Assembly (NCBI GenBank): GCA_018000995.1
Contig: JAGNIU010000006.1
Location: 62,001 to 126,000, forward strand
Direction of reading: 5' to 3'
DNA from: Bacteroidia bacterium
GTDB lineage: Bacteria > Bacteroidota > Bacteroidia > B-17B0 > Aurantibacillaceae
DNA length: 64,000 nucleotides
Shown: piece after piece, positions 24,783 through 61,484 of the stretch
How the letters are laid out: each line of letters opens with the position of its first letter
Numbering within the stretch: the first letter of the stretch is position 1
The notes under the pieces: model-generated
Seen by the model: the letters and a program-made list of their open reading frames with translations, nothing else
The model's database searches: none
What the model was told of the DNA's origin: nothing
Translations under genes and position numbers: made by a program

Positions 24783-24783
24783 A

Positions 24784-36801: not shown

Positions 36802-37773
36802 TTTGCCATTAAACTCTGAATCAAGAGATGAAATCGCTTTTTCAAATCTTTGGTAATCATCCTTTTTTGAAATTGATATTGCGTTATCAATAAGAATTTT
36901 ATCTGGTTTTAGACCAGTAATTTTAGCAAGACCTGCTATCGTATCATTTAGTATTATTGAATTAGCTTCAAACAACAAGTCTGTTCCACTTTTGTTCAGA
37001 TTGATAACTCCTAACGGTCGATTCAGTAAAGAGAATGCTTTTAATGTATATTTAGAGCCTCCATCAATTTTACTTTGTACTAATATTAATCCTTTTGAAA
37101 GGCCTGCTTGAATTCTACAAGAATCAATAACTTTAAAAGTATCTTCTTTTAAACCACATTCGTATTCACTTAAAATTAACCCGCCATTTTCCAAAACTTT
37201 TTCAGCCATTAACGCTGTTGAAGCTAGTAATGTTTTTGTTTTATTATAATTCAAGCCACCCGCTAGTACACCAACCACATTGCTATGAAGTCCTTTTTCT
37301 CCAGTAATACTTGCCTCGTCAACTCCAATGGCTAATCCATTACAAATAGAATATCCTTTTTCGTGAAAATAAGCTCCAAGTCTTTTTGCTATTTCAATAG
37401 CGATACTATCCGCTTCTCTTGTTCCAATTATGCCCAATGATTTTTGTGCGGCTGCAAGATTTCCTTTGTAAAATAAAACAGAAGGCGGGTCTTTTATTTC
37501 AGAAAGAGTTTTAGGGTATTTGCTATCACTTAAATCGACAAGTTTCACATCATTATCGTGCGATTTTGAAATAGTATCTTTTGAAAGACCAACATACTCT
37601 TCTATCTCTTCATCAGAAATTTTCTTTTTCAAAATCACTAAAGCCTTTTCTATGATTTGATAATGAGATTGATTATCAAATACTCCGTTCAGCCAGAGTT
37701 TTTTTATTGCAACCTCTCCAGCGCCTTTTACCTGACGTAATGCTAATATTGCTATTAAATTGTTATTGCTCAT
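36793..37773 (-). CDS. Divergent DprA-like Rossmann-fold protein
   Basis: 326 aa from the ATG at 37773, which overlaps the stop of the HAD-PRTase gene (TAATG). An HhH-like N-terminus (about 5-40; ALRQVKGAGEVAIKKLW) precedes the DprA/LOG Rossmann fold: IIGTREADS, YSICNGLAIGVDEA, VGVLAGGLNYN, GGLILSEYECG, SCRIQAGLSKGLILV. The family sequence SGLARGID is changed to NGLAIGVD, and RNRIIAGLS to CRIQAGLS, so nucleotide or ssDNA binding may differ from competence DprA, which loads RecA on single strands. It is the last gene of the seven-gene operon. Confidence 0.8.
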   Translation of the reverse strand: MSNNNLIAILALRQVKGAGEVAIKKLWLNGVFDNQSHYQIIEKALVILKKKISDEEIEEYVGLSKDTISKSHDNDVKLVDLSDSKYPKTLSEIKDPPSVLFYKGNLAAAQKSLGIIGTREADSIAIEIAKRLGAYFHEKGYSICNGLAIGVDEASITGEKGLHSNVVGVLAGGLNYNKTKTLLASTALMAEKVLENGGLILSEYECGLKEDTFKVIDSCRIQAGLSKGLILVQSKIDGGSKYTLKAFSLLNRPLGVINLNKSGTDLLFEANSIILNDTIAGLAKITGLKPDKILIDNAISISKKDDYQRFEKAISSLDSEFNGKLF

Positions 37774-39038
37774 TATATAATGTTTTCGGAGTGCCCGCAT
37801 CCATTCCCTTTAAATTGCGGAGGAGTGCAAGAGAAGAATTTTATGCCATCCGATTTTCTTATTTTAATTTGCATTTGCTGGCTGCATTTTGGGCAAACCT
37901 TAATGCTTAGAACTCTTGAAATCATGAAAAACAACGTTACGAATAAAATATTGGTTGCCCCCTTTTTCCTAAGCATATTTACAACTTCATAGGCAGTACC
38001 TCCAGACGTAAACTGGTCATCTATTACAATAATTGATTTTCCATCTAATTCAATCCCATCAATAACGTTTAAATTTTGTGCAATAAAATCTCTGCGTTCT
38101 CGATAGTTAATTCTATTTCGAATACTTCCATCAACGTCATCCAGCCATTTAAATAACTGGACTTTTGGAATTGGACTTTTAATAAGCTCAAAGAAAATTT
38201 TCATTTTATTTGGCGGAGCCGTTGTTGATTTGTCCGAAACATAAGTTATATAATCCCATTTTAAATTAGGAGCAGATTTGAATACGCTTTCCAAATAAAT
38301 CTCAATTGAATGAGATAGCTTACTTAAAGCTTGTATACTTCTATTTTCTCTTTGAAATTCTTTATAATAAAAGGCTATTCCATATTTATCGCATTCTCCA
38401 TCATCTTGTCTGCCTAAGCTTCTAAAAATCGTGAGTGGGCCATCTTTTGTGCTATCGTGTAATCTTATTGCTTGAATTGATTTGATATCGTGAAACACCC
38501 CTTCTGCTGCCCATAAATTTTGCATTGGATTAGCAAGGATATTCAGAATTTGAGCGAACTGTTTCGCAAAATAAGTCGGACCACTTTTTAATTGATGCCA
38601 GGTTTTTCCAATTCCATCTCTTTCATCAACTTCCGTTGTATAATAGAATTGGGTAAGAATGGTTTTAAAATTAAGTGCTCTTCCTAATTCTATGTCAAGC
38701 CATGTGTCCCCAATGATAATAAAATTATCCTTTTCATTTATGTTGTAGCCTTTTTGCATCAGATACTCAATTGTTTTTTTTGAATTGGGTTTATCTGCTA
38801 AGGAAAGCGCAGCTATTCCGAATATTTGTTCGGCAATAGGATTAACGTATTTCGGATGACTATCAGAAATGATAATCGGGGTGTGTCCCTGTTTTATAAC
38901 TTCCTGCACAAACTCTCTTGCCCCTGCAAATGCGGGAATTTTTGAAATGACAGTATCTTCCAAGCCATCTTTCATTGGCTTGAATGACTTTTCAGCTGTA
39001 TTAGTAAGCGTCCCGTCTAAATCAAGTAAAACAATCAT
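37773..39038 (-). CDS. HAD phosphatase - phosphoribosyltransferase - zinc ribbon fusion
   Basis: 421 aa. Residues 1-150 are a HAD-type phosphatase: nucleophile VLLDLDGTLTN, motif II IIISDSHP, motif IV IIGDTWLDIELG. Residues about 220-385 are a type I phosphoribosyltransferase with the PRPP loop SIIVIDDQFTSGGTAYE. The C-terminus (about 387-421) has CPKC and CTPP...GNGCGH, a topoisomerase-like zinc ribbon. The combination suggests handling of a nucleotide or PRPP-derived metabolite. It is locked between the helicase gene (7 bases upstream) and the DprA-like gene (1-base overlap). DprA-PRTase pairs near helicases are, as I recall, a recurrent defence-island theme. Confidence 0.82.
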   Translation of the reverse strand: MIVLLDLDGTLTNTAEKSFKPMKDGLEDTVISKIPAFAGAREFVQEVIKQGHTPIIISDSHPKYVNPIAEQIFGIAALSLADKPNSKKTIEYLMQKGYNINEKDNFIIIGDTWLDIELGRALNFKTILTQFYYTTEVDERDGIGKTWHQLKSGPTYFAKQFAQILNILANPMQNLWAAEGVFHDIKSIQAIRLHDSTKDGPLTIFRSLGRQDDGECDKYGIAFYYKEFQRENRSIQALSKLSHSIEIYLESVFKSAPNLKWDYITYVSDKSTTAPPNKMKIFFELIKSPIPKVQLFKWLDDVDGSIRNRINYRERRDFIAQNLNVIDGIELDGKSIIVIDDQFTSGGTAYEVVNMLRKKGATNILFVTLFFMISRVLSIKVCPKCSQQMQIKIRKSDGIKFFSCTPPQFKGNGCGHSENII

Positions 39039-39045
39039 TTAATTA

Positions 39046-41136
39046 TTATTTCAAACTTATTAAATCTGATTTCACTCCAGTACCAAAAACTTTAAGAACG
39101 CTAATTGCTCTGGTGATGGCTACGTAAATTAAGGAACGCTCACTGTTCAAGTAATCCTCCTTCTCTTGCACTTCCATTTCATCAAACTTCGCAAAGTACA
39201 ATGGGGAGGTTCGATTATTTACATCGCTTAAAATAACGGCCTTAAACTCTAAGCCTTTTAGACTATGAAAAGTAGAAAGAACAACACCTTTGCCCTCTGG
39301 TGAAGCTGACGAAGTAACATCCTGGTAAGGTATCTTCATTTGATGTAAACTATTTTTCACTTCTTTAACGGCTTCCCTTGTTCTACATCCAATTGCAATA
39401 TCATTGAAGTTAAAACCTTGCTCTTTTAATTCATTTATGAGTTTAACAATAGCATCTACTTCTTCATTCTTAGTTTTAAATACCTTGTAAGTTGGGTGCT
39501 CACCATGGAATAATGACAAGTATCCATTCAACTTCTCAGTTTCTCCGTCAAAGTCATCGTAATTAATTCCTTTTACTGCGCTTAATGCAAGGCGCTTTAT
39601 CTCTTCTGAGGTTCTATAGTTGATGCGAAGCTGTTTACTTCTGGTTCCTCGTACAGAAATACCCGCAGCCGAGAAGTTTATTTTACGAGCGTAGATTCTT
39701 TGGTATGGGTCTCCAACAAGAAAAATGTCATTCTCCTTTTCCTCGACCAGTGAGCGCAAAAATCTCAACTCAATATTTGATAAATCTTGAACTTCATCAG
39801 CAATCACATGCTTAAATGGTTTTGTATTTTGAGATTTGTTATACGATGAAACAATATTATATAGCTCCGCTCTGTCCATATAGCTGTTTGTTTTTTTCTT
39901 TGTATTGTATATCTCTATCAACTTCCAGAAATCCATTTTTTGTTTTCTCGAAATAGGTTTTCCTCTTCCAATCCTGCTCACATTTAAATACGAATCAATT
40001 GATTGAATGTCATTAAACAAAATCACCGATTGATATTCAGCTGCCAGAAATGCTGTATCAAACTCAGAAAGATTTTGTTCCAGAATTTCGTCCCAAAGTT
40101 CGTAGCTGGTTTTTGAGTTCGGTGTATCCAGAATGCGAGTTTCCTTTTCTATCAATTTCGCTTCCTTGGCAATTTCTCGAACAAGAGCATCAATATTTGT
40201 TATTTGTGCCTTAGACTCGTCAATAGAAAGCTTCTTGGCAAGTGAAATTAAATTCACAGTCAGAGCATTTGTGAATGTAGTAAAGACCGTTTTGCGTTTA
40301 TCACTGTCAGTCAAATTGGATAGATGCTTCAGGCGGTGCAAAGCAACAACAGTCTTTCCTGTTCCAGCCCCACCCGTTACTTTAACCGAACCCTTAAAAT
40401 TTGATTCAACCAATTTCCGTTGCGAAGGATGTAAGAAGATTTGCCATTTACTTAATTCACCATTTATTATTTCAGTCATTAATTCATCGTCAACCTGAAC
40501 AAAGTTTCTTTGGTTGTTAACGCTGTTAATTTGTTCTTCAACATTTGTTGATTTGGATTTTCCTTCGTTGATTTCTGCAATCATCAATTCTATATTTGCT
40601 CCTTCGGATATATAGAATAGATTTTCAAACGTATCTGCTGGTAAGAATTTTTCCGCTTGCTCTAACTCAGATAAGTCCCGTATTGACCGAACAAGATTCA
40701 TAGATTGTGATGGCACTCCAATTGCGAGTAAATTATCATCGGTACAGTCGGCAAACAAACTATGTTTTTTAACAGCCGCAGTAACTGGTTTTACCATTTC
40801 TTCTTCTGGAGCAGTAAATATTTGGGCAGTTTGTGTGTTCTCGTTCCATAAAAAAACTTTATTCTTCGCCCAATCCATAGCCTCGTCATGATTATCTACC
40901 CAAAGCATGTAGTAGCTATCACCTGATTGCGGCACTTTAATTATCGCTCTATATTTTTGGTCAATCCTTGCAGTTCTCAAGGTTGGGTCCTTAAATGTGC
41001 TTATTGGTTCCAAATGGATTGCCTCCGATTTAGAATTCTCTCTAAACTTTTTCTGAAAGTCAAGTACTTTTTTTTGAATTGCTTTTGGCAAGTCAATTAT
41101 TTGCTCGAAGCATTTATCATGAACGTATAATTTCAT
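39046..41136 (-). CDS. UvrD/Rep-type SF1 helicase with RelE-like N-terminal domain
   Basis: 696 aa. Residues about 1-100 (KLYVHDKCFEQIIDLPKAI, TLRTARIDQKYRAIIK, YYMLWVDNHDEAMDWA) resemble a RelE/ParE toxin fold of the kind fused to or paired with UvrD-like helicases. The helicase motor follows: motif I VTGGAGTGKTVV (253-264), Walker B IADEVQDLS, motif III GDPYQRIYA, motif IV QLRINYRTS, motif V STFHSLKGLEF and motif VI YVAITRA. Its start overlaps the stop of the 2104-aa gene by one base. Whether the RelE-like part is an active RNase or a nucleic-acid-binding platform is unknown. Confidence 0.85.
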   Translation of the reverse strand: MKLYVHDKCFEQIIDLPKAIQKKVLDFQKKFRENSKSEAIHLEPISTFKDPTLRTARIDQKYRAIIKVPQSGDSYYMLWVDNHDEAMDWAKNKVFLWNENTQTAQIFTAPEEEMVKPVTAAVKKHSLFADCTDDNLLAIGVPSQSMNLVRSIRDLSELEQAEKFLPADTFENLFYISEGANIELMIAEINEGKSKSTNVEEQINSVNNQRNFVQVDDELMTEIINGELSKWQIFLHPSQRKLVESNFKGSVKVTGGAGTGKTVVALHRLKHLSNLTDSDKRKTVFTTFTNALTVNLISLAKKLSIDESKAQITNIDALVREIAKEAKLIEKETRILDTPNSKTSYELWDEILEQNLSEFDTAFLAAEYQSVILFNDIQSIDSYLNVSRIGRGKPISRKQKMDFWKLIEIYNTKKKTNSYMDRAELYNIVSSYNKSQNTKPFKHVIADEVQDLSNIELRFLRSLVEEKENDIFLVGDPYQRIYARKINFSAAGISVRGTRSKQLRINYRTSEEIKRLALSAVKGINYDDFDGETEKLNGYLSLFHGEHPTYKVFKTKNEEVDAIVKLINELKEQGFNFNDIAIGCRTREAVKEVKNSLHQMKIPYQDVTSSASPEGKGVVLSTFHSLKGLEFKAVILSDVNNRTSPLYFAKFDEMEVQEKEDYLNSERSLIYVAITRAISVLKVFGTGVKSDLISLK

Positions 41137-44100
41137 TATGTAATATCTTTAATATTAAAGTCTTCTAATTTTATTTCTGAATATCCTGCTAGTTCGAATA
41201 GTTTTTTATCAGCTTCTGATTGGGGACTAATAAAAATCTTTTTATTCTCAAATCCAAGCATCGCTTCAGCAAAAACCCCATTATGCTCAATAAAGAATCC
41301 TCCTTCTTTCTTAAAGAAAATATTCTTGTCAATTAATTGCTTTACAATTTGATGAACAGATTTGTCATGGTACTGCAAGCAATCGTACTTATTGTCATCT
41401 TGAGTGTCCTGACTTTGCTCTTCGGTCGCAATCTCAGTTTTCAGAATAGAATTTGCTTGAATCAAATTATAAAGCTGCCAGAAATTTTCCCATTTGTTCT
41501 TCTCCAAATTTCCATTAACCTGATTAATCCAAAGGCTTGCTTTTACATCAAGGTCCAAAACTTTAATGGCAATTTTTAATGTAGCAAAATCTGCCCCTGA
41601 AAAGAGCTCTGGGAAAACATAAAATTTACCCTGTGACTTTATTTTTGCTTGCATTCCATTATCCAGCTTCGTTGATGAAGAAAGTGTTTTTTCAATATCA
41701 ACCTCATCAACCGATGGGTTGGCGAAATTTGATTGGAACAATGATAACAGCAAACCTATTTTAGGTTCCTTGTTTGATTCTTCTAATGGATTGCACAGGA
41801 CCCAAATCAATCGCTCAAATGAATTCTTTTTTTCAAAGAGTGAGCTCTTATAGCTTTTCCAATAGGGAACGACTTCATATTTTGAAATTGTACTTTTGTA
41901 TTTTGTTCTATCAAGGAATAAATTATCACGCTTGAACTGTTTAGACTCAGCATCATTTTCCTTTTCAGGCGCATCAAATCTTTCCACATCAGACCAAGAT
42001 AAAGTCCATGAGATTTTATTTCCTGATTCAATTATTGCAATACGTTTCTGCAAGTCATTATAAAATCTATTATTTTCCTTTGTTGCGTGAAATGTATAAC
42101 CATCCAGATAAATCGCAATTCCTTTTGCGTATGAAAGCACAGCTTCATCTGTTACTGCAATTCCATTCCTTTCAACTGCAACTAAGGTGATGTAAAAGTC
42201 CGTTCTTGTTTTGTATTTAACGCCTTCAGCAGGCCCCAATTCAAATTGTGGACGAATTACATACGAATAACCTAATTCTCCTGAAGTAACTTTAAATTTA
42301 TAGTTTACTATACCTTCCTGGATAAACTCTTCGAAATGGAATCCAGAATCGGTTTTTGCAAGAACAAAGTTTTTTAAACTTCTTATAAATCTTTCTTCCA
42401 ATTCACTTTCCTCAATCTGCCCATTTCCAGATAGAGACCCTAACCCAGAGGTGTAATTTTCCCAAGCACTTGATTTATCTACGATTTTTTTGAAGAGCTT
42501 TTCCGCCCAGGTTCTGCTTAACTCATCTTGTATATGCTGGTTCGAGTAAGTAAAGATACAGCGATAACAACCATCTTTGCCCTTGTATTGACAACCACAA
42601 TCTTTAATTGCATGATATGCCTTTGTAATCACCTCGGTAAATTCAATCGGATTAAATAGTTTTTCGAGATAACCAGTTCCACCAGGGATATTATCATGTA
42701 TTACAAGGTACTTATCAAAACGACTGTTTTTTGCATTGAATTCTGAGTAATTAATAAAGCTTAAATGCTGCGGATTTCCTTTGTAATATTTCTTTAAACC
42801 AAGTTCAAGTCCAGCTTTAAACATGTTTACTTGCGACTCACTTTCCAGGTCTTGAACTGGCAGTAGAACTTTTAGTGCTTCAGTTTTTATTTCCTTAAAC
42901 AAATAAACCTCCTCAAAAATCTCATCGCTTTTTCCATCATATAATTTGTCTTTGTGTTTGCAATAACCAAAATGGAATTTGAAATTCTTATCGAATCTTG
43001 CTCTGTGAGGAGAAGATGTACTTTTACCACAATACTTGCAAGTAACAAACCCATGGTAAGGAATATCCTCATGTTGGTTTATTGTTATTTTGTTCGCATC
43101 TGCTGCACTGGATAAGCCTAGATTTACTTCAGTAATGTCAACGTTTTTTACATACTCAATTCCGAAAGGAATATCCTTCATACCCCATGCTCCTTGAAAG
43201 GTATTGTAATCAAATTTAACATGCTTAGATACTTTATAAAGATTTGCCTTGCGCTCGTCACTGCTGTCATCAAGAGTGGATTTCTCTCTTGTATTAACTG
43301 ATTTAACACTGTTAATTCGAACAAAAATATGTTGATTCTTTGCAGATGACCAAGAGCTGTCACCGCATTTAGGACAGAATGACTCGGTTGACACAGCACT
43401 ATCAGCAATGTGGTCGCAGTTAGAACAAAATCGTTTTCGCAACAGTGTTCCAGGGTCCTTCCAATCAAAGGTATTTAATCCAGAGATTGCGAACTTAAAT
43501 CCTTGCGAGTAAAAATGATTGTCTGGAGCAAATTCCCTTATTGCAACACTTGAAGACCTTACAATTTCAAATTGTTTATCGGTTGGAATATTAGCACTCG
43601 CTTTTGCTGGATTTGATTTAACCCAGGCGTTAAGTGTAACTCCTGTTTCTGGGAAAGCATAGTTAGGCAATAAACCAACATTTGTAAGATGTTCCAAAAC
43701 AGAACGTTTGTCGATTAATCTCTTCAAGCCCCATAGTGCTTTTTTCTCTCCTTCAAGTATTTTTCTTTCTTCGTCCGTTTCTGGGAGATTGTTGCTTTTT
43801 ATTATATTATCAATTTCCTTTCTCTTTTCATGAATGTATTCGTACTCCTTTTTTATTTTAACGAAGACTAATTTGATTCGAGAATAGAATGATTCATCGC
43901 CTAAAATCGAGCGCAAATTATCAAGCACCTTTGTATCTTCTAGGTCTGGAGTATAGAAATCAATAAAACGGTTTAATAAACGAGATTCGTTTGCTTTTAC
44001 AAAAGAAATAATTCTATTAGACAGGAAGTCTGGAGAACTCAAGTCTGTATTTAATAAACGAAGGGAAATTAGTCTTCCTGGTATGGAATGATTTCTTGGA

Positions 44101-47100
44101 TTCTCTGAGGTCCAGTTATCCAAGCAGTATGCAAAGAAGTGGCGGAATAAAATGTCTTTCGCTTCGAGATAGCAACCTGGAGTTGCAATCTCACCTTCCA
44201 TCATATCTAATGGTTCCTCATAGTAAAACAAATCATGAGCTTTGCTTTGAGCAAAGTTTGTTATTAAGGCTGAACCTGAAGAACGGCCTGCACGACCAAC
44301 TCGTTGTAAGAAATTTGATGTGAGAGGAGGAACAGAGTTATTTATTGCGGTGTTCAATGTTCCTATGTCGATACCCATTTCAAGTGTTGATGTGGCAACA
44401 ATTGTATTTAGGGAATTGAAGTTTGGTCTTTCTTTAAAATCAAATTCTTTTTGTTCTCTATCCTTCCGTTCTAGTATCCCAGTATGTTCTGCCGAATAAA
44501 TTCTTGGCGAACGATTACGATTATAAACTAACTGGTAATAGTTGGGCTTTGTTTTAGGTGAGGGCTTATATGAACCAGTTTTGCATGTGTAGTCAAGGCA
44601 ATTTGTTAATGATGTTAATACATCCGAATCAGCCACACTTAATGAAGATGCACAAACATCGCACTCATGACGCTTAACCTTATTCTCAACCAAAATTACG
44701 GCTGGAATTATTGCATAATTATAGTTTTCTTCTGTTCCTGCCTTATTCATAATGCCGACTTTCACGAAAACCTCGAATAATTTTTCATAAAAGTCATTTA
44801 TTATGGCATGATGCGGGGAGGCGAGTATAAAAGATTTCAAGAAATAACTTCGATACCAATTATTAGTTTTGGTAAATGTTGTATCAAGCAGGCCTCTTCC
44901 GTGAGGTTCTGTTGTAAGTAATTTGGGAAGTCTTGTTCGAGCACCAAAGAAACGATTCAGGAAGTGTCTGTTATCTCGCATCCAATTTAAATCCCAAAGT
45001 TGCAATCCATTTTCTCTGAACTTGCTTAAGTATTCATTATCTACGCCTCCTCTGGTTCTTACTCGATGCAGTATTCCATTTATAAAAGGCAAAAATAACA
45101 CTTCAATAATCGGTGAAAGATTGTTTTGAAGCAACCACTCTTTCATTTCTGGGAAAACTGCTTTTAGTTTTTCTTCATCAAACTTAATCGCAGAAGCTCC
45201 TGATTTTTCAAGCGTTCTTCCTAAGATTGCGTTGAAGCCAAATTCAACTGAGGTCTCCCAACGCATACGCTCATCGAATTCCTTTTTGAATTCAGGTGTA
45301 AAATTATTTCCAGTTCGATAATCTGTATTAATATCTGCCTTGCTTTTAAAATCGGCTGGGAAGAAGCGGTAATAGTAGGCCTGCTCGTTATTCCCGCCAG
45401 ACTCATCTGAATTTGCTTTCCAATATTTAATAAATTCCTCTTGCAGCTGGGCCAGGTTGATTTGTGGTCCGCAGTTATTTATCACCTTTTGTAAGGATGA
45501 ACGGAATGTGAAGCGGTAATTTCGAGCTTCAATAAACCCTGCCTGGTGAGCTGCATCCTGAACACTATTCGTGAATGCAAGTATCTTTCTATATTTCTCC
45601 GTTCGTGGGTCAAGGTCTGATGCCAATACCTGGCTTACAGTAATGGAAGAAAGTGTTGCTATCCTTGTACCAATAATACCTAATGTATTTTCCGTATTAC
45701 ACTCAGGGCAAACATGTCGGCTCTTTGCATCGGTGACTTTACGAACCGCATGTATTTTGAAAGCTTCTTTGCCACCTTTTTCTAATATGGTTAAATCGAC
45801 TGGATGTAAAAAATCGTCAATGGTATTTGTTGGTTCATACTCCTCGATATGCTGGTGATTTGGAGTGTTAACCAAATAAATGTTTTTGTGATTGCTGAAA
45901 AAATACTCGTACACCTTGTTTGGTTCAGAATCAAAGTGATTTTTGTTGTCATCTTTAATTCCAAGCCAACCGCTTGCTCCACACTCTCGACAATAATACG
46001 AGGGTAGGGCCTTTGGTTCATACTTATCACCAACTTTATCTTTCCAGGTAAATAATGGTTGTTCGTTTAACTCACGTAAAACACCACTGAGTTCACGAAC
46101 CCACATTTGTATTTGCAAATACAGGAAAGGAAACTTTCTTCCTTCCCCAACTTTTGCTTCAGCGATTAATGCAAGGATAGAATTAATAACTTCTTCTCTA
46201 GGATTCAATTCGTTTTCCTGGTCCCATTCTGGTAATCTCCTGAACTCCTCATTGCAGTCGGCAAGCTCTTTTAGTAAAACACCCAGTGCTTTGATATTTT
46301 TACTTGTTAACGAAATTAAATCCTTAACAAGTTTAAGCTTCTTCAATTCCACGCCTAGTGATACTGACTCAATTGTTTCGGGCAATTGCCATAAACGTTT
46401 TTGTCTCTTGATATAATCAATGTAAGTTTCATTTTCCTTTAAACGACTTTCCAATAAACCAATTTGACGGGGAATATACTTGTCAAGCGAATCATTTGAC
46501 AAATCAAAAAAAGCATCAACTTCTAAACGATTTTCTGTGATTATTGATTCCTCATCGAATTCTTCACCAAATACTTTTTCAGCATATGTAGTAAGTAGTT
46601 TTTTCGAGTCAGCTCCAGAGCCAATGGTTGCAGAAGTTCCAATTGCACATAATTGACCTTTAGGAATGGTCAACTTAAGTTTTAGCCTGCGAATAAGATT
46701 TGCCACATCAGTTCCCTGAGCTCCGTCATAAGTGTGCAATTCATCAAGTACAAGAAATTGCAGCAATGATGAATCTTCCAAATTAAAATTCCAAAGGTTA
46801 TGATAGTTGTTACGCATTAAAGCGTAATCCAACATTTTAAAGTTGGTTAATAAAATATCTGGTGGGCTGTCAACAATGCTATCTCGATTTTCGATAACAT
46901 GATTTTCACCCATTTCTTTCGGGTATTTCTTTTTATCTTTTCCCTCTCCAATAAATAAACCTGCGGTTACTTTTCCTTTTATTCTACTATCGCTCCAAAT
47001 TGCTTCTGCCAGACGTTTAGCCTGGTCAGATGCAAGAGCGTTCATTGGATAAAGAATAATTACTTTGATGCCGCTTCGATTCAAATTTTTGTAACAGTAA

Positions 47101-47450
47101 TCAAGAATAGGGTATTGGAAACATTCTGTTTTACCAGAAGAAGTACCAGTTGTGATTAATGTTGCTTGAGGTTTGTGACCTACTTCTGTATTTAATCTTT
47201 GGAATGCTTTATACTGATGGTGATACGGAGGAAAATTGGGTTTTATATCGAGCGGAATAATCTCTGATTGTGTTGCGGTTACAAAAGGGAGTTTTAATGA
47301 AACATACGGCCCTTTAAATATTCCTTCTTCATTGTTGTTTATGAAATTATAAAATGCTTCATGCACTAACTTATCCTTAAAGCTAAATGTAGCTTTAAGA
47401 TATTCAAGTATTGAATGTTTAACCTCGTATGCCTGCTGTAATGGTAACAT
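41136..47450 (-). CDS. Giant DEAD/DEAH helicase with DUF1998 and nuclease-like C-terminus (DrmA-DrmB/DruE-like)
   Basis: 2104 aa. SF2 helicase core: motif I TGTSSGKT (101-108), Ib YPMNALASDQ, II DELH (236-239), III SAT (273-275), V ATSTLEMGID and VI QRVGRAGR (about 1050). Zinc-like CxxC pairs occur near 480, 590, 930 and 1340. A DUF1998 module follows (IHDNIPGGTGY about 1585, then CGCQYKGKDGCYRC about 1620). The last 500 residues contain TDFYI (D1751) and YLDGYTFH (D1783, H1788) followed by NDLQKR, a DUF559/Vsr-like endonuclease pattern. DISARM encodes the helicase and DUF1998 parts separately as DrmA and DrmB; Druantia DruE combines them. The gene is 2 bases after the methylase gene. Confidence 0.85.
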   Translation of the reverse strand: MLPLQQAYEVKHSILEYLKATFSFKDKLVHEAFYNFINNNEEGIFKGPYVSLKLPFVTATQSEIIPLDIKPNFPPYHHQYKAFQRLNTEVGHKPQATLITTGTSSGKTECFQYPILDYCYKNLNRSGIKVIILYPMNALASDQAKRLAEAIWSDSRIKGKVTAGLFIGEGKDKKKYPKEMGENHVIENRDSIVDSPPDILLTNFKMLDYALMRNNYHNLWNFNLEDSSLLQFLVLDELHTYDGAQGTDVANLIRRLKLKLTIPKGQLCAIGTSATIGSGADSKKLLTTYAEKVFGEEFDEESIITENRLEVDAFFDLSNDSLDKYIPRQIGLLESRLKENETYIDYIKRQKRLWQLPETIESVSLGVELKKLKLVKDLISLTSKNIKALGVLLKELADCNEEFRRLPEWDQENELNPREEVINSILALIAEAKVGEGRKFPFLYLQIQMWVRELSGVLRELNEQPLFTWKDKVGDKYEPKALPSYYCRECGASGWLGIKDDNKNHFDSEPNKVYEYFFSNHKNIYLVNTPNHQHIEEYEPTNTIDDFLHPVDLTILEKGGKEAFKIHAVRKVTDAKSRHVCPECNTENTLGIIGTRIATLSSITVSQVLASDLDPRTEKYRKILAFTNSVQDAAHQAGFIEARNYRFTFRSSLQKVINNCGPQINLAQLQEEFIKYWKANSDESGGNNEQAYYYRFFPADFKSKADINTDYRTGNNFTPEFKKEFDERMRWETSVEFGFNAILGRTLEKSGASAIKFDEEKLKAVFPEMKEWLLQNNLSPIIEVLFLPFINGILHRVRTRGGVDNEYLSKFRENGLQLWDLNWMRDNRHFLNRFFGARTRLPKLLTTEPHGRGLLDTTFTKTNNWYRSYFLKSFILASPHHAIINDFYEKLFEVFVKVGIMNKAGTEENYNYAIIPAVILVENKVKRHECDVCASSLSVADSDVLTSLTNCLDYTCKTGSYKPSPKTKPNYYQLVYNRNRSPRIYSAEHTGILERKDREQKEFDFKERPNFNSLNTIVATSTLEMGIDIGTLNTAINNSVPPLTSNFLQRVGRAGRSSGSALITNFAQSKAHDLFYYEEPLDMMEGEIATPGCYLEAKDILFRHFFAYCLDNWTSENPRNHSIPGRLISLRLLNTDLSSPDFLSNRIISFVKANESRLLNRFIDFYTPDLEDTKVLDNLRSILGDESFYSRIKLVFVKIKKEYEYIHEKRKEIDNIIKSNNLPETDEERKILEGEKKALWGLKRLIDKRSVLEHLTNVGLLPNYAFPETGVTLNAWVKSNPAKASANIPTDKQFEIVRSSSVAIREFAPDNHFYSQGFKFAISGLNTFDWKDPGTLLRKRFCSNCDHIADSAVSTESFCPKCGDSSWSSAKNQHIFVRINSVKSVNTREKSTLDDSSDERKANLYKVSKHVKFDYNTFQGAWGMKDIPFGIEYVKNVDITEVNLGLSSAADANKITINQHEDIPYHGFVTCKYCGKSTSSPHRARFDKNFKFHFGYCKHKDKLYDGKSDEIFEEVYLFKEIKTEALKVLLPVQDLESESQVNMFKAGLELGLKKYYKGNPQHLSFINYSEFNAKNSRFDKYLVIHDNIPGGTGYLEKLFNPIEFTEVITKAYHAIKDCGCQYKGKDGCYRCIFTYSNQHIQDELSRTWAEKLFKKIVDKSSAWENYTSGLGSLSGNGQIEESELEERFIRSLKNFVLAKTDSGFHFEEFIQEGIVNYKFKVTSGELGYSYVIRPQFELGPAEGVKYKTRTDFYITLVAVERNGIAVTDEAVLSYAKGIAIYLDGYTFHATKENNRFYNDLQKRIAIIESGNKISWTLSWSDVERFDAPEKENDAESKQFKRDNLFLDRTKYKSTISKYEVVPYWKSYKSSLFEKKNSFERLIWVLCNPLEESNKEPKIGLLLSLFQSNFANPSVDEVDIEKTLSSSTKLDNGMQAKIKSQGKFYVFPELFSGADFATLKIAIKVLDLDVKASLWINQVNGNLEKNKWENFWQLYNLIQANSILKTEIATEEQSQDTQDDNKYDCLQYHDKSVHQIVKQLIDKNIFFKKEGGFFIEHNGVFAEAMLGFENKKIFISPQSEADKKLFELAGYSEIKLEDFNIKDIT

Positions 47451-47452
47451 AA

Positions 47453-50400
47453 TTATTTGTCCTTAAGCTTTTTTTCAAAGTGCTTCCAAGCGTTTGTGTA
47501 ATCCTCAACTCTGTTATATTTAGAAAATGGTGCGACAAAAGTGATTTCCTTGCCATTAAATTGCTCGCTTTCTGTTATTTTATAAGTGTATTTTTCTCCT
47601 GCTTTTAAACATTTGATTTGTTCTAACTCAGTTCTTGTAACTCCAACCCCTCTTAGTGTCTTACTGCTTGGTGTAAACACAATTTTCCCACTTGTATCGT
47701 ACCAAGTATCATCTTCGAACTTTTTCAATATTGAAAAATTAAGAAGATAAATTTGTACTAGCTCTTCAAGCGTTAAACCAAAATTCATAGCAACCAATAC
47801 ATCAATCTCAACCAATGCTTGTCTTCTCGTTAATAGATTTCGAAATGGAGTTGATGCAGTCCAGTTCTTCGAAACATTGGAAATATCTTCCAAGCCAGAT
47901 TTCTCACACGACCATGAATCCTTAATAAATTCATCCTTAAATAATTCTTCCCAATAAGGAGCGTAGCACTTTTGAATACAATTAAGCCTTAGAACACGTA
48001 AGAATATTTCCGATTTAAATTTCGATTCTATTTTAAACGGTAATGGGTCAATTCTGCTACCGTAAATATTTGGGGAGCCAATAGTTTTAATACAAAAATC
48101 GTAAAGAATAGAAGTGGTCAAACTTAATATGTTGTTTAGAATTTCAAAATCCTTATGAAATGCAGAAAGAATCGAATTTATATGCCCCATCTTTGGAGCT
48201 AATAGCGCTGGTTGTAAGGTCCTCTCACCATCAACGTCAACCATCTTTCGAAAACCAACTCTAAAGGAATTTATTTCCTTTGATTCAAATGGAAATTTCT
48301 TTCCAGGAATTAGGTTCGTTCTTGGAAGAGTCAAATCCTCGTTTAACAGTAAGTCATTAAAATCATAATCTGAACCTTCTTTACTTACAATCTGTGGCGA
48401 TTTAAAAAGTGGATAGGAAACAGAAATCATTGGTCCCGTAAGTACGAGCTCATATTTATTTATATCGGGTGAAATTGTTTTTCTTTCAAGTTCGTCTTCG
48501 GAAATTGAAGATGTTTCATGAAAACCCTCGCTATAGTTAACGCCCTTGTCAGATATTCGTTCTTTAGTTTCACTAAGTTTTTTCAAGACTTGAATTACTT
48601 CACTAGATTGAATGTTTACGAGCTTAACTACCTTGTAGGATTCTCCTTTTTCAAAAAGGTCTGCAAGGAGTTGAAGTGATTCTTCATTGTGCTTTATTAG
48701 TCTATTTACATTTCCTTTTAAATTCCATATCCAATCACCTTCTGTGTTTTTTACAATTATTGCGTTATCAACTGTTAGACTAAAAGTTGTTTCAAATACT
48801 TCTATCTGATTTGGGTGCAACAAATTGCTAATTGAAATAAATGAAATATTTTCATTTCTCTTGCCGTATACATTAACTCCATAATCTAATCTGTGGTGAA
48901 CCTCCTGAAATAACTTAAGTATATTTTTAAAATGGAAATGATATTTTAATCTATCATAAATATCTTTTCTAAGAGCTTGCCCGTTTGAATCTTCATATAC
49001 ACTCTCAGGATGAATTAATCCCATCCATCCATTGGGACCTAAAAGGTCAAACCCATTTACTAAAATACATTTGTAAAGATTTGTTTGTTGCCCTAAAAGA
49101 GTAGAATATGAATGTGTGCCATTCATGAATGATGCTGTGCAGCTTGTCTCAATTATTTCTTGTTCATATAAATTCTTTAATCCCTTATCAGAGAAAAAGC
49201 CAGTTTTCAAATTTCGAATTTGTGGAGCAGAAACACTTCTAATTGCAATTTCTGGAAATTTCTCTGATAAAATTCCTTTCTCTTCGAATGCTACTTTTAA
49301 CCAAGGGGGATTCCCCGCCATTAAATCAAAACCACCTCTTTCCCAAAAGACTTCTAGAAATTCTAGTTGTGGATGAAAGAAGAAATACTTCTTTGACAAC
49401 TCAGCAACAATTTTCAGCCTTTGATTTTCATCAAATAAGTCTTTCCTTTCCGCATATTCAACAACTGCTGCTTCAAACACCTTTGGTGCGTCATCAGTTT
49501 CCTCTCCTAAGGCAAGCTGTTCACCACCTGTATAAAATAATTTTTCTTGTAAACCAGCTTGTATCTTCTCTTCTGTTTCATTTGAAACAATTTTATCAAT
49601 ATCTAATTGCAAAATATTACCAATATCACTCCAGTATTGAGCTCTATTTGGTAATTCATCGGCTTGGCGTACATCCCAAAACCAAAGACTGCACCAGTAA
49701 TCCATTACCATTTTCAACTTGAAATATGGTGCGCTATGTCTATTTCTTTGGTCAGCAAGTTTTTCCTTCTCATCATAGCTTTGCATTTGCAATATACCTT
49801 GCTCGTTCTTTTTTGTTGCCCCAAAAATGTTTTGTCTTGAACCCGTTTGTAAATTGATATTGCGTTGAAAACGGTAATACTCCGCAAGCAGTTCATCAAT
49901 AGTATTGGAAATTACTTTTACCCTTTCAAATTCAGTTTTTGTTAGTGGCTTAATCCATTCTTTCTTCCAAGTTGCAACACCTTTTGTAAAAAGGGAGTTT
50001 TCTTCCTTTAATAATTTAATACCAGCAGAAGCAACCATGCTCTTGTCAGGCAGCAGAAAGTGGTAAACCTCATTTTGTTTCCGATTTGTTTTAATTTTAT
50101 CGAAATCGGAATTAGGTTTAAACTCCAATTGGCGTGGGGCTTTTTCCCACCATTCTTTTTTTGCAAGTGCTTTTTTGTCTTTTCCTTTTCCAGATTTAAT
50201 CACTTCGTACTCTTCAATTAAATCCTTCTCTGCATAAACTTTTAACCAAGCACCCACTACGGCATTTCCAACGCAAATACGGTTACTGAAAAAAGGTGTT
50301 TCCATATCCCTATGGATTACGTTTAGCCACAAGGATAATTTCCCTAATTCAATTGCTGTTGGATTTAAATCGACACCATAAACATTGTGAGTTGCTATAT

Positions 50401-52294
50401 ACGCTTTTACTTTTTGTAATTCTTCTTTGTATTGGTCTGGTTCAATTTTCCATTCCTTTCTTCCAGAGTCACGCAATTCTTTTTGACGATAGCTTGTATA
50501 GGCTTCGGCCAACTGGTTAATCATTTCGTTATGGAATGCTGCTGCACCCATTGCAGGCTCCAACAATTTCAAGTCAAGTAATTCCTGCGCCTTCATTTCG
50601 CCTTTCTCTAGTTTTTCGAGAATGGGTTTGAGTGTGTATTTAACAGTACAACGAGTTAAAACCTCTGGAGTATAATATGAAGCTGATTTTTGTCGGTCAC
50701 GTCCACTCAGGCGATAAACAAAAGTTCCTTTTTTAAGAATTACATCCTGATGATTTTCATCTTTTAATATTTCATCTTCTTTAAAGTCATCTCTTCTACT
50801 CCGAGGAACCAGATACGTTCCATCTTCTGGTTTGTCCTTTTTGTGAACCTCAATGTAATCTTGCTCAGCATAAAAACCACGGTAAGCCAGTAAACTTTCA
50901 TAAACACTTCCTAATTGGTTAATTCCAAGGTTTGCATAAGAGATTCTTCCTCTAGCTTTATTGCGTTGCTGTTTTGAAAGCGAAAGGCGGCAAATAATAT
51001 CTTGCCAAACCTTATTTCGGAATTTTACTTTGTGTAAATGGTGCAGCTTTCGGTCATCAAAAATTGGTGAGTCAATGTGTCGAACTTTGAAACTCTTGTT
51101 GTGTCCATTTTCCTTTTCACGATAACCAGAACTCAAGACATGAAACAATTTACTCAATGATTCATGAAAGAATTCTCCGTTCAAACTGTTTTCAGAATAC
51201 AATGGAACCTGCTCAAGGTCCCTCAGCATTTCTAATGAATATCCCTTATTGTAAGTGGAGTCATTGCTTGGTAAAATATCTAAGTCTTCACGGCTTTCTG
51301 CATAGAATATAAAAAGAAGGCGGTAAATAATTCTTAAGCAATCATCCTTAATTTCTTGCTCAAATTTATCATCGGTTTCATCAAAGTCTTCATGCTTTTT
51401 TTCCTTTAGGTAGAATAGCGCTTCATTGGCCAGGGCTTCTACAGCATGAATAATGCCTTCCTTTAGGTCTTTCGTGACCTCGTAGGCGCTTTTGTGACTG
51501 TCCTCGTCCAATTGGTCCAAAAGAACCATATTGCTATCTGGAGCCAGCGTTTCCTTTCCTACAAGAAAATAGAATAAAGCGTAATAGTTTGCGTTGCGGT
51601 TTGCCGTTGCTTCAGAGAAAAGCTCCTCCAGTTCGAACTGCAAGTAACTCCCTCGGAACCATTTTTCTTGTTCAAGTAAAAATAATCCATTACCTGCAAG
51701 CAATAAAATATACTTCGGTCTTTGATGCGGCTCCAATAAAAACAGTTGTGAAACGGCTTTATTAATAATTACAGGGGATATTTTTTGGTCCTTTGGAGTC
51801 GTAAAAACCCTTTCCCATTGTAAACGGTGATATTTTTGAGCAGGGTTTGCCTGTTCTTCATCCTCCACATTATATCGCTGCTCAAATAAACCATCTGGCT
51901 CATTATCGTCCTCTTTAATGAGAGACTGCATTTCCATTACCATCAAATGAGGTTGGTCTCCACGGTAAAGAATATGCCTTACTGGAATTACTTGCTCTTC
52001 GGTGAAATGAAAAAGATGGTCGTATTGCGTGTGTGCAGCATCATAACCTAATGCACTTAAAAGATGTGTATGGAATTGATGCGTTTCGAATATTTTATCT
52101 TTCGTTCTGAGCCTCCCTTCAATGTAAAGCTCTTTGTATCGGAAAAACTTTTCCTTTAGTGGAGTAATTTTTTTATTGAATTCCTTTACGTCTTCTGCAT
52201 TGTATCCTGTTTTGGATAACACTTTTGATGTAAAGTCCTCATCAAAATAATTTGAAGAAAAATAATCACCTGTATTTCGTATAAACTTTAACAT
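47453..52294 (-). CDS. Large Eco57I/PglX-like N6-adenine DNA methyltransferase (DrmMI-like)
   Basis: 1613 aa. SAM-binding motif I is LLEPAMGAAAF near residue 580, followed by VYGVDLNPTAIELGKLSLW; catalytic motif IV is AGNPPWLKVAFEEKG near 995. The gap of more than 400 residues between them is long. The last 400 residues are probably target recognition. The N-terminal 300 residues contain HLMVMEMQSLIKE, where a type IIG nuclease would have ExK; the Lys is missing, so I see no working nuclease. The role would be marking host DNA with N6-methyladenine, as PglX in BREX or DrmMI in class 1 DISARM. The gene lies 6 bases after the SNF2 gene. Confidence 0.87.
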   Translation of the reverse strand: MLKFIRNTGDYFSSNYFDEDFTSKVLSKTGYNAEDVKEFNKKITPLKEKFFRYKELYIEGRLRTKDKIFETHQFHTHLLSALGYDAAHTQYDHLFHFTEEQVIPVRHILYRGDQPHLMVMEMQSLIKEDDNEPDGLFEQRYNVEDEEQANPAQKYHRLQWERVFTTPKDQKISPVIINKAVSQLFLLEPHQRPKYILLLAGNGLFLLEQEKWFRGSYLQFELEELFSEATANRNANYYALFYFLVGKETLAPDSNMVLLDQLDEDSHKSAYEVTKDLKEGIIHAVEALANEALFYLKEKKHEDFDETDDKFEQEIKDDCLRIIYRLLFIFYAESREDLDILPSNDSTYNKGYSLEMLRDLEQVPLYSENSLNGEFFHESLSKLFHVLSSGYREKENGHNKSFKVRHIDSPIFDDRKLHHLHKVKFRNKVWQDIICRLSLSKQQRNKARGRISYANLGINQLGSVYESLLAYRGFYAEQDYIEVHKKDKPEDGTYLVPRSRRDDFKEDEILKDENHQDVILKKGTFVYRLSGRDRQKSASYYTPEVLTRCTVKYTLKPILEKLEKGEMKAQELLDLKLLEPAMGAAAFHNEMINQLAEAYTSYRQKELRDSGRKEWKIEPDQYKEELQKVKAYIATHNVYGVDLNPTAIELGKLSLWLNVIHRDMETPFFSNRICVGNAVVGAWLKVYAEKDLIEEYEVIKSGKGKDKKALAKKEWWEKAPRQLEFKPNSDFDKIKTNRKQNEVYHFLLPDKSMVASAGIKLLKEENSLFTKGVATWKKEWIKPLTKTEFERVKVISNTIDELLAEYYRFQRNINLQTGSRQNIFGATKKNEQGILQMQSYDEKEKLADQRNRHSAPYFKLKMVMDYWCSLWFWDVRQADELPNRAQYWSDIGNILQLDIDKIVSNETEEKIQAGLQEKLFYTGGEQLALGEETDDAPKVFEAAVVEYAERKDLFDENQRLKIVAELSKKYFFFHPQLEFLEVFWERGGFDLMAGNPPWLKVAFEEKGILSEKFPEIAIRSVSAPQIRNLKTGFFSDKGLKNLYEQEIIETSCTASFMNGTHSYSTLLGQQTNLYKCILVNGFDLLGPNGWMGLIHPESVYEDSNGQALRKDIYDRLKYHFHFKNILKLFQEVHHRLDYGVNVYGKRNENISFISISNLLHPNQIEVFETTFSLTVDNAIIVKNTEGDWIWNLKGNVNRLIKHNEESLQLLADLFEKGESYKVVKLVNIQSSEVIQVLKKLSETKERISDKGVNYSEGFHETSSISEDELERKTISPDINKYELVLTGPMISVSYPLFKSPQIVSKEGSDYDFNDLLLNEDLTLPRTNLIPGKKFPFESKEINSFRVGFRKMVDVDGERTLQPALLAPKMGHINSILSAFHKDFEILNNILSLTTSILYDFCIKTIGSPNIYGSRIDPLPFKIESKFKSEIFLRVLRLNCIQKCYAPYWEELFKDEFIKDSWSCEKSGLEDISNVSKNWTASTPFRNLLTRRQALVEIDVLVAMNFGLTLEELVQIYLLNFSILKKFEDDTWYDTSGKIVFTPSSKTLRGVGVTRTELEQIKCLKAGEKYTYKITESEQFNGKEITFVAPFSKYNRVEDYTNAWKHFEKKLKDK

Positions 52295-52300
52295 TCCTAA

Positions 52301-55147
52301 TTACGAATTATAAAACACTGCTAATACTTTTAAATAAGGCTCTCCATGCAATGACGTGAGGTCATTATAGTATTGGCTTGATGTGCTTAGTATTGTTTCA
52401 ATTTCTCTTTGTCTGTTGTCCTTAATACTGGACCAATAATTTCCTCCAACTCTTTCGCTGAAATCCATTTCTAATTGTTCCATTGCAGCCTTATGCCAAT
52501 TTTCAATCTTTGTTTTGTAATCATCCAACTTCTTTTCCATTTTACCTTCAAGCTTTTGTTGTTCTTCTTGCATGTGATGGGCCGCCCATAGAACAGCATC
52601 AGGCAAAATAGTTTGTAGATTACCAATTTCTTCCTCAGTGATAGTTTCTGTGTGCATCGTTTCTCTCATCTTAAATTCATCAATAAAATTGCTCAATGAG
52701 AAAGTCTTTCTAAGAATGCTACCATCCCATTTTATACCTACAACAAGAAAATCTACAAGAACTGGCTGACTAAGATTGTTTGAAACTTGCCCTTGGAAAA
52801 CAAACCAGGCACTTTTTGCAGGAAATATTTTTGATTTAGAAACAAGTGCAACATCTTTATTAACGCTGGCTTCTAACTTGGTCATATAATATCGTATTAC
52901 AGGATGCAATTCATACAAAACCTGAAACTCAGCCCACTCACCATGTTTTTTCCTCGCTTCATCAATTGATTTTTGAACAAGAGTTTTGTCAAGAGAAAGT
53001 TTGTAAAGACTATTCACTTTCGGTTTTGACTCTGGTGGCAAATCGAACAATATTTGATTAAGCTCCTTTGTATTTATTACCTCAAGGTAATCATCACTCA
53101 CGGTAACTTCATTTTTGCTCAATTGATTTCCAGAACTCAACTGCTCAAATAATTCTTTATAGAAACCAAAATCATTATTGTAAATGGATAGTGGTTTTTC
53201 AAAGGGCTCATCAGTGATAGTAACTTCTGTTGTGTCGCACATTGTGCTAAAATCAAAGCCTCCTTCTTGTTTCTTTTCCAAAAACTCTTCATCTTGATTC
53301 AAAAAAGCATTTTCAACTTGGTTTTCTTCCTGTTCTGCTTCATACAGCTTCATTACAGAGCCTGCGTCACCTAGTGTTTTATAAACAACCTCTTCTTTCT
53401 TCGTTATGCGCTCTATAATATGCAAGTCTGTCTTCAAGCCTTTTATATTTGATTCAGCAATGATATAATGTACAAATGGCGTTTTCTTCTGACCATATCG
53501 GTCAATTCGGCCATTTCTTTGTTCAAGTGTTATGAGGGACCACGGAATATCATAGTTGAACATTCTATTGCAATAGTAATGTAGATTCACACCTTGAGAA
53601 CCTGCATCGGAACACAATAAAATTTTTACTGTGCTATCCTGTTTGCCAAAATCATCAATTATATCTTGTTGTTCAGTATCTGTTAAGCCACCGTGAAAAA
53701 ACTGAACAGATTCTTCTTTTAGTTTAAAATCATAAGCCAGATTTTCTCGCAAGTAAGTTAGCGTATCAATCCTCTCAGCAAAAACCACAAAGCGGTCATC
53801 ATTTGTTTTTCCAGACCATCCAAGCTCAAGTAATGTTTTTTTCAATTGCTGATACTTACTATCAGATTTCGATTTTAGAATTTTCTCAAGCTTACTTTTT
53901 AGTTCGTTTAAAATTCCAAGATTTTCTTCGAACGCATCTTCCTCAGATTTATTTGCTTCAACTTTTTCAATCCTTCGCTTTATGCTTTCAAGCGCTGCTT
54001 GGGGTGAAGACATAAATGCTTTAAAGATTCCAATTGAAAAAAGGAAATCATCTTTTGGTTTCCCGCTTTTGTACGAAGCAATCGCTTTGAATTTAAGTTC
54101 TTGTTGGTATTGCAAGAAATCAATTTCATCAGTGCTTAGGTCGCATGATTCACGAACTACTTTTCTTTCAGAAAAATTAGCACGAACTGCTTCGTCTTCG
54201 ATGTCATTTTTAAATCTTCTTACATAATATGGCTCAACATGACTTTTGTCATAGTCGCCATTTCGAGGAATGGCGGTTGGTTCAATCATGTTAATCAAAT
54301 TGGCGAAGTTTTCCTTTTTACCATTATGCGGAGTAGCAGAAGTAAGAATCAATGACTCGCATTTTTTTGAAATGAATTGAGCTAAGTCACCTTTCTGACT
54401 CTTATCATTTGCAACTGTATGACACTCATCAATTACTACCACATCCCAGCGAGATTTCTCTAAGTAATGTCTGAATTTCGCATTTCTTTTTAGTGTATCA
54501 ATCGAAATGATTGTTTTGTCGTAGTAATCAAATGGATTTTTATTCGCTGGTAACTGCGATTTAATTTTTGCAATTCCTTCTGAATCTAAACGAACCAAAG
54601 GAATTGCAAAGCGATTCCAAATCTCTTGCTGAAATTGAGCAAGAATTGATTTTGGAGCAAGGACCATAATTCGTTTCCCTTTACCTCTCTTAATCATTTC
54701 AGTAAGGAAAATTCCAACTTCGATTGTTTTTCCCAAGCCGACTCCGTCAGCTATAAGCAAACGTGGGCGTGGAAGTTGCAATGCTTTTAAAGTAGGCGTG
54801 AGCTGATAATCTGCGGCATTAATCGCTGCTTTATTTGCAATAGTAATTTTCTCAGAAAAAATTGAAGAGTTTCTGATTTGTGTTTCCAAAAATAATTTTG
54901 TTTTCCTGTAACCACTATCGTTATCAGGAACCAAAGAAGTATGATTCGGGTCAACAGGTTTTATATCCGTATCAAGACTTGAATCAAATGCAAAGCGTTT
55001 ACCTTTTACAAGCTCACTTATTCCTTCAGCATCAATTAAAACAGAACCATCGTGATTTACATTGGTTCCTGTAATAATAAAATCCTCTCCTCTCGTTGAT
55101 ATTCGTTGTCCTATTGTAAGATTCATTCTCCCTAAATTTTTAATCAT
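52301..55147 (-). CDS. SNF2-like SF2 helicase (DrmD-like)
   Basis: 948 aa, with M8 (55126) as an alternative start. Motif I is ADGVGLGKTIEV (133-144), Ia LAPKSILAQFQQE, II DECH (230-233), III TSATPHNGK, then the helicase-C half with QGVNLHYYCNRMFNYDIPW, and motif VI QRNGRIDRYGQ near 540. The C-terminal 350 residues are helical with charged coiled-coil-like stretches. Layout and length match DrmD of class 1 DISARM and BrxHII of BREX. It overlaps the XRE gene by 8 bases and is followed by the methylase, the order drmD-drmMI seen in DISARM. Confidence 0.87.
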   Translation of the reverse strand: MIKNLGRMNLTIGQRISTRGEDFIITGTNVNHDGSVLIDAEGISELVKGKRFAFDSSLDTDIKPVDPNHTSLVPDNDSGYRKTKLFLETQIRNSSIFSEKITIANKAAINAADYQLTPTLKALQLPRPRLLIADGVGLGKTIEVGIFLTEMIKRGKGKRIMVLAPKSILAQFQQEIWNRFAIPLVRLDSEGIAKIKSQLPANKNPFDYYDKTIISIDTLKRNAKFRHYLEKSRWDVVVIDECHTVANDKSQKGDLAQFISKKCESLILTSATPHNGKKENFANLINMIEPTAIPRNGDYDKSHVEPYYVRRFKNDIEDEAVRANFSERKVVRESCDLSTDEIDFLQYQQELKFKAIASYKSGKPKDDFLFSIGIFKAFMSSPQAALESIKRRIEKVEANKSEEDAFEENLGILNELKSKLEKILKSKSDSKYQQLKKTLLELGWSGKTNDDRFVVFAERIDTLTYLRENLAYDFKLKEESVQFFHGGLTDTEQQDIIDDFGKQDSTVKILLCSDAGSQGVNLHYYCNRMFNYDIPWSLITLEQRNGRIDRYGQKKTPFVHYIIAESNIKGLKTDLHIIERITKKEEVVYKTLGDAGSVMKLYEAEQEENQVENAFLNQDEEFLEKKQEGGFDFSTMCDTTEVTITDEPFEKPLSIYNNDFGFYKELFEQLSSGNQLSKNEVTVSDDYLEVINTKELNQILFDLPPESKPKVNSLYKLSLDKTLVQKSIDEARKKHGEWAEFQVLYELHPVIRYYMTKLEASVNKDVALVSKSKIFPAKSAWFVFQGQVSNNLSQPVLVDFLVVGIKWDGSILRKTFSLSNFIDEFKMRETMHTETITEEEIGNLQTILPDAVLWAAHHMQEEQQKLEGKMEKKLDDYKTKIENWHKAAMEQLEMDFSERVGGNYWSSIKDNRQREIETILSTSSQYYNDLTSLHGEPYLKVLAVFYNS

Positions 55148-61408: not shown

Positions 61409-61425
61409 TTCAGAGGTCCCGAGCG
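61409..61425. other. attR: 17-bp direct repeat at tRNA-Cys 3' end
   Basis: Identical to 23287-23303; its last 12 bases are the 3' end of the intact tRNA-Cys. Integration therefore preserves the tRNA at the right side. The remaining tRNA bases (61426-61484) belong to the host chromosome. Confidence 0.88.
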
Positions 61426-61484
61426 GATTCGAACCGCTGTAGGAGCTTTTGCAGAGCTCAGCCTAGCCACTCGGCCACAGGACC
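61414..61484 (-). tRNA. tRNA-Cys (GCA)
   Basis: 71 bases on the minus strand fold into a complete cloverleaf: acceptor GGTCCTG/CGGGACC, D stem GCC/GGC, anticodon stem GAGCT/AGCTC with loop CTGCAAA (anticodon GCA), T stem AGCGG/CCGCT with TTCGAAT, and discriminator U73, which is the cysteine identity base. CCA is not encoded. This is the integration target of the island and remains intact. Confidence 0.95.

Follow-up and report, generated by a model that had tools for sequence, protein, structure and literature searches.

A predicted Vsr-like PD-(D/E)XK nuclease domain at the C-terminus of an ArmC-like helicase in an ARMADA Type II-like operon of a Bacteroidia bacterium

The window analyzed here is a stretch of 64,000 nucleotides from a Bacteroidia bacterium of the Aurantibacillaceae (assembly GCA_018000995.1, contig JAGNIU010000006.1, positions 62,001 to 126,000), and the gene under study encodes a YprA-family helicase that ends in a nuclease-like domain. 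It stands third among four reverse-strand genes, which follow one another in the order BrxHII-like helicase, PglX-like methylase, YprA-like helicase and GajB-like helicase. This is the order of ARMADA Type II, which a 2025 preprint (Bell et al., PMC12458937) describes, in the portion of its text on which this and all later statements from it rest, as four genes, ArmABCD, running from an SNF2 protein through a methylase and a YprA/DUF1998 helicase to a UvrD helicase. By gene order and homologues the operon fits ARMADA Type II, and we name its genes after that system.

ArmC is encoded by an intact reading frame. Its Pfam matches are DEAD (2.9e-18), Helicase_C (1.4e-10) and MZB (1.3e-10), and the DruE profiles of PADLOC match it as well. 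The MZB domain, a zinc domain of the DUF1998 type, is the last credible Pfam match and ends at residue 1632, and similarity among ArmC homologues runs on to about residue 1830 before it fades. Before that point lie the peptides RTDFYI (D1751), AIYLDGYTFH (D1783 and H1788), NDLQKR (D1799 and R1803) and SWTLSWSD (W1819 and D1821). The initial annotation of this DNA had pointed to a DUF559/Vsr-like motif at this end of the protein, and the motif is real, as the conservation and shuffling results below bear out. The interval to which it had been assigned, 41136-42260, holds D1751 to D1821 but misses the first helix, where the E1685 codon lies at 42396-42398. Taken together, the Pfam domains and the aligned motif place helicase, DUF1998 and nuclease-like domain in one polypeptide, and it is plausible that helicase, DUF1998 and predicted nuclease act as one machine, as had been proposed.

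To describe conservation, we aligned 24 Type II ArmC sequences (alignment A1) drawn from 27 rows; L025, a near-duplicate of L024, was left out, as were two sequences from outside Type II, L028 and L029. Invariant in all 24 are S1682, E1685, D1751, D1783, G1784, H1788, D1799, R1803 and W1819, while L1684, F1688, Q1735, F1752, W1815 and D1821 are nearly so. The window domain is only 23-29% identical to 18 of its 23 relatives in A1. Over all 27 rows, D1751, D1783 and H1788 are each kept in 26. The full pattern (E, DF, DG..H, D..R, W.D) also occurs in all six viral-contig homologues (L030-L035; 11/11 rows of A3); in L015, N replaces D1821, so that only the last element is missed. The core motif is thereby kept in 30/30 Type II-like sequences. 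When residues 1660-1850 were shuffled, the full pattern arose in none of 200,000 shuffles and the short core DF..DG..H..D..R in 32 of 100,000. Between D1751 and D1783 the window ArmC and its close relatives are longer by about 12 residues. Viral contigs yielded no loci when scanned with the window ArmC alone or with the ArmC of an E. coli plasmid. We take E1685 to be the counterpart of Glu25 in Vsr and H1788 that of His69; D1783 presumably occupies the position of K in (D/E)xK and of His64 in Vsr.

Table 1. Features of the ArmABCD-like operon and of the ArmC C-terminus, in window coordinates.
Feature	Position	Strand	Remarks
PD-(D/E)XK Vsr/MTES_1575-like nuclease domain (predicted)	41961..42434	-	ArmC residues ~1673-1830; alignment, hhalign, AlphaFold2, VIA-align
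E1685 codon, first helix	42396..42398	-	invariant 24/24
D1751 codon, candidate metal-ligand Asp of 'PD' motif	42198..42200	-	invariant 24/24
D1783 codon, DG motif	42102..42104	-	invariant 24/24
H1788 codon, general-base candidate	42087..42089	-	invariant 24/24; +5 from DG Asp
D1799 to R1803 codons, helix after DG..H loop	42042..42056	-	D1799 and R1803 invariant 24/24
C-terminal tail, residues 1831-2104	41139..41960	-	poorly conserved; weak second restriction-fold-like domain at end, without catalytic motif
ArmA-like SNF2/RapA helicase	52301..55147	-	948 aa; SNF2-rel_dom 1.8e-17, Helicase_C 1.2e-17; DrmD/BrxHII-like
ArmB-like PglX/type IIG-like DNA methyltransferase	47453..52294	-	1613 aa; Eco57I 2e-15; PADLOC DrmMI match
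ArmC-like YprA-family helicase with MZB/DUF1998 and C-terminal nuclease-like domain	41136..47450	-	2104 aa
ArmD-like GajB/UvrD helicase with N-terminal extension	39046..41136	-	696 aa; UvrD-helicase 1.4e-24, GajB 2.8e-32

AlphaFold2 models of residues 1640-2104 and 1673-1912 (mean predicted local distance difference test scores of 73 and 70) both consist of a helix and then strands. In the longer model E1685 lies in the helix, D1751 just before a strand, D1783 at the last residue of the next strand and D1799/R1803 in the following helix, after which another strand comes; this secondary structure fits the PD-(D/E)XK core, which has the order alpha-beta-beta-beta-alpha-beta with its Asp at the second core strand. 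BsoBI bound to DNA heads the VIA-align list of both models (Z 7.7, root-mean-square deviation (rmsd) 3.5 and 138 aligned residues for the first; Z 6.7, rmsd 3.7 and 148 aligned for the second), and the list for the first model also holds BstEII, a VRR_NUC domain, Holliday-junction resolvases, Can2 and AbaSI along with frataxins and unrelated proteins. Vsr is absent from the VIA-align rows of both models, an absence that does not exclude it. The models thus agree with a PD-(D/E)XK fold but do not prove one. Additionally, VIA-align weakly superposes the end of the tail (model part 373-465) on PvuRts1I (Z 3.9, rmsd 4.7, 86 aligned), with the motif absent there. Inactivated EEP and Vsr domains are reported often to follow the Type II ArmC nuclease domain (PMC12458937).

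Scanned singly against Pfam, five of the 24 domains match REase_MTES_1575 (PF18741; best E 5.4e-4) and none matches Vsr (PF03852). With hhalign, the ArmC domain matches MTES_1575 at a probability of 95.8% (score 55.9), the motif residues falling in register; the best of 100 column-permuted controls scored 18.9. For Vsr the probability is 0.5% and the score 15.2 (control maximum 23.0), which is no significant profile similarity. The sequences for these comparisons (18 Vsr, 11 MTES and 24 DUF559) were picked by motif pattern. Because the picking patterns had fixed E at the (D/E) position in the MTES and DUF559 sets, we recounted this position in 25 rows per family without the filter, and found no readable motif in 3 Vsr, 7 MTES and 6 DUF559 rows. 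Among readable rows, F occupies it in 21/22 Vsr, and E in 17/18 MTES and 19/19 DUF559; in ArmC it is F or Y in 21/24, E in two and L in one, with Y1781 in the window. The spacing from Asp to His is +5 in ArmC, Vsr and MTES_1575 and +4 in DUF559. Thus, ArmC combines the Asp-Gly of MTES with an aromatic residue like that of Vsr. The E-helix, the D, DG..xH at +5, D..R and W are common to MTES_1575 and ArmC, and MTES_1575 domains, like that of ArmC, are often part of long open frames, most of the best rows spanning 1000-2000 aa; they differ in carrying E at the second position ahead of the DG Asp, where the window ArmC has Y1781. Vsr shares the aromatic and the His at +5, but its anchor residue is mostly His and that of ArmC is Asp. 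Judged from sequence, the nearest family is REase_MTES_1575 and not DUF559 proper. Of the DUF559/Vsr core first proposed, the likeness to the Vsr superfamily stands; the DUF559 part does not, given Y1781 in place of the DUF559 E and the spacing of five residues.

In most relatives ArmC is followed by ArmD, and where the fetched DNA is long enough, ArmA and ArmB come before ArmC; L014 and L028 gave no match to ArmD. On a Cylindrospermopsis plasmid (L022, 8818-23445) the Type II genes are ordered C-D-A-B, contrary to the strict order stated in PMC12458937, and the annotation of a Tsukamurella plasmid (L020, 8980-15239) divides ArmC between two reading frames that overlap. Thirteen further YprA-like proteins, one of them archaeal, came from plasmid records. 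A Type I-like class of ten (L028 and L146-L154) was assigned from gene order or similarity, and nine were counted because the frame of L147 breaks after 634 aa. LE, DF and DG..H are kept in five of the nine (L028, L151, L152, L153, L154), whereas DG..H and most of the rest are lost in the other four (L146, L148, L149, L150), whose tails keep a similar size but look visibly decayed. These counts were made by eye, and an automatic pattern that also required D..R passed only L028 and L153. The four decayed copies come from Acidithiobacillus, Hydrogenimonas, Rhizobium and Sphingobium plasmids. The motif was not found in three proteins that look Druantia III-like (L144, L145, L155). DruE1-profile matches in relatives from the phylum Bacteroidota gave 22 rows, among which L053, L055 and L056 are ArmC, and L040, L041, L042 and L049 stop shortly past the DUF1998 cysteines and lack a nuclease-like tail. 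The concern that the motif might be present but inactive throughout the relatives is not borne out by this distribution, which runs from invariance in Type II through partial retention in the Type I-like class to absence in the Druantia III-like proteins.

We consider it likely that the window gene is the ArmC of an ARMADA Type II anti-phage system and that it carries, as C-terminal domain, a PD-(D/E)XK nuclease of the type seen in Vsr and REase_MTES_1575. Several results weigh against this assignment. A profile search of the C-terminus, suggested at the outset, was empty in its direct form: the window's own domain matches no Pfam family and does not reach the PF18741 cut-off, and the MTES_1575 signal came from hhalign. 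The domain profile found no match among Protein Data Bank sequences, and canonical Vsr is indistinguishable from permuted controls, 16 of 100 of which score as high. The confidence of both models is middling, as are the BsoBI Z values, Foldseek returned nothing at E <= 0.001 for either, and frataxins stand in the same VIA-align lists at Z 3.6-4.9, where values below 8 can reflect a common arrangement. The E. coli ArmC mutants described in the preprint hit helicase motifs only, and that portion of its text names no mutant of the nuclease domain (PMC12458937). Finally, the domain has neither the second acid of PD-(D/E)XK nor its Lys. This last point would also suit a pseudonuclease that grips DNA or partner proteins, with the damage done by host nucleases or by the RelE-like end of ArmD, and so would the loss of the motif from Type I-like relatives that keep the tail, and the description of the Druantia I and II copies of the domain as inactivated (PMC12458937). 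We nevertheless regard a pseudonuclease as unlikely, since true Vsr also does without the second acid, and since polar, charged and aromatic sites stay invariant in Type II at such low identity, unlike decay, which is plain to see in the motif-less Type I-like copies.

Assignment to DUF559 proper seems improbable. Aligned by hhalign to 24 DUF559 sequences, the same residues fall in register with a score of 19.9, narrowly above all 100 permuted controls (maximum 18.8; one control run errored and may carry over the preceding value), but the probability is only 3.1%, the spacing is wrong and the window has no E at the E-x-D-G position. Additionally, a search of the whole genome with PF04480 at E <= 10 matched two other genes only, and not ArmC. 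Least probable is a DISARM variant in which the fusion replaces the drmC nuclease. DrmD-like and DrmMI-like genes are indeed present, and DISARM shares SNF2 and PglX-like methylase homologues with ARMADA (PMC12458937). However, DISARM has a separate DUF1998 protein, DrmB, known here by the description in that preprint, and a separate PLD nuclease, whereas the window helicase is DruE/ArmC-like and holds its DUF1998/MZB domain within the same protein. No DISARM model of NCBIfam reached its cut-off for the window proteins, and a gene set with UvrD is that of ARMADA Type II. No PLD match was found in the ten neighboring proteins scanned, the PLDc_2 matches of the genome lying on other contigs (C18 and C26). 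The DISARM reading was rejected on this architecture, on the lack of a separate DrmB or PLD-type DrmC nearby and on gene order. In the described YprA-family tree, the ARMADA set lies outside DrmA (PMC12458937). The suggestion that a nuclease had moved into the helicase to make up for a missing drmC falls away: the fusion is the normal architecture of ARMADA Type II, which has been published as a lineage of its own, and thus no sign of drmC loss. A Druantia reading was likewise rejected on gene order and architecture. DruE of Druantia III is also a YprA-family helicase-nuclease that binds and cleaves DNA in vitro, but its nuclease part is described, in the available text, as two PLD domains and not a Vsr-like one (PMC13192584).

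An ArmC with a Vsr/MTES_1575-like nuclease would most likely couple helicase and nuclease activity against DNA left unmarked by the methylase. The YprA-type motor and its OB-DUF1998 canopy would load onto invading DNA that lacks ArmB methylation and translocate along it, with assistance from two further motors, the SNF2 protein ArmA and the UvrD protein ArmD; the nuclease tethered to ArmC would nick or cut that DNA. Within the putative site, D1751 would bind the metal and H1788 would serve as general base, with E1685, D1783, D1799 and R1803 completing a Vsr-like arrangement in which an aromatic residue replaces the second metal-binding acid. All four ARMADA genes are needed in E. coli, where defense is non-abortive and is abolished by ArmC K110A and D234N (PMC12458937). 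In L017, a relative on an E. coli plasmid, K110 and D234 stand at the positions that they have in the tested ArmC. The window ArmC is only about 29% identical to the E. coli-plasmid ArmC. According to the accessible text of a 2026 review, the restriction mechanism of ARMADA is still listed as unknown.

The nuclease end of ArmC is already predicted in print, an active Vsr-type domain being proposed for ARMADA I and II alike without a split between the types (PMC12458937), and our finding is largely known in that sense. To that predicted cutting the alignment adds names for candidate site residues (E1685, D1751, D1783, H1788 and R1803) and their E. coli equivalents. A further small addition is the split among Type I-like copies, five with the motif and four without, against retention in every Type II-like sequence. 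It is possible, though we put this forward tentatively, that the nucleases of ARMADA are a PD-(D/E)XK branch of their own, with an aromatic for the second acid and Vsr-like Asp/His catalysis, constrained in Type II and in part of Type I decayed to pseudonucleases. Because the Type II site is kept throughout and four of nine Type I-like sites have decayed, the two types would then destroy phage DNA by different means. We suggest the Type I members with decayed motifs as natural negative controls.

PADLOC and NCBIfam call the window proteins DrmD-like, type IIG/DrmMI-like and DruE-like, and PADLOC REase_MTase_IIG (PDLC03614) matches ArmB from end to end at 1483 bits. Because the PADLOC profiles split ArmABC into 'DrmD', 'type IIG RM' and 'DruE', a reader can mistake the operon for DISARM or Druantia; PDLC03614 may report ARMADA methylases as type IIG restriction enzymes. 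In ArmD, about 230 residues precede the UvrD core and look ParE-like by eye, with no RelE/ParE match in Pfam; a RelE-like domain is reported at the ArmD N-terminus (PMC12458937).

Directly after ArmD lies a pair of reverse-strand genes (36793-39038), one DprA-like (ShosA-like) and one HAD/phosphoribosyltransferase-like (ShosT-like), which is probably a further defense or toxin-antitoxin pair. Adjoining it on the forward strand (35287-36801) is a Cas4/PDDEXK_1-like nuclease fused with an RNase H-like domain. On the other side of the operon, 56588-60753 (forward strand) encodes an MkoA-like helicase of 1113 aa (PADLOC 2.8e-128) and then a weak MkoB-like protein, probably a Mokosh-like system beside ARMADA. 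Further out, within 23511-26417, a tyrosine integrase (23511-24782, forward) adjoins a HipA-like kinase (24784-26079, reverse), and a tRNA-Cys lies at 61413-61484; with these features, the island may represent a mobile element that has integrated here.

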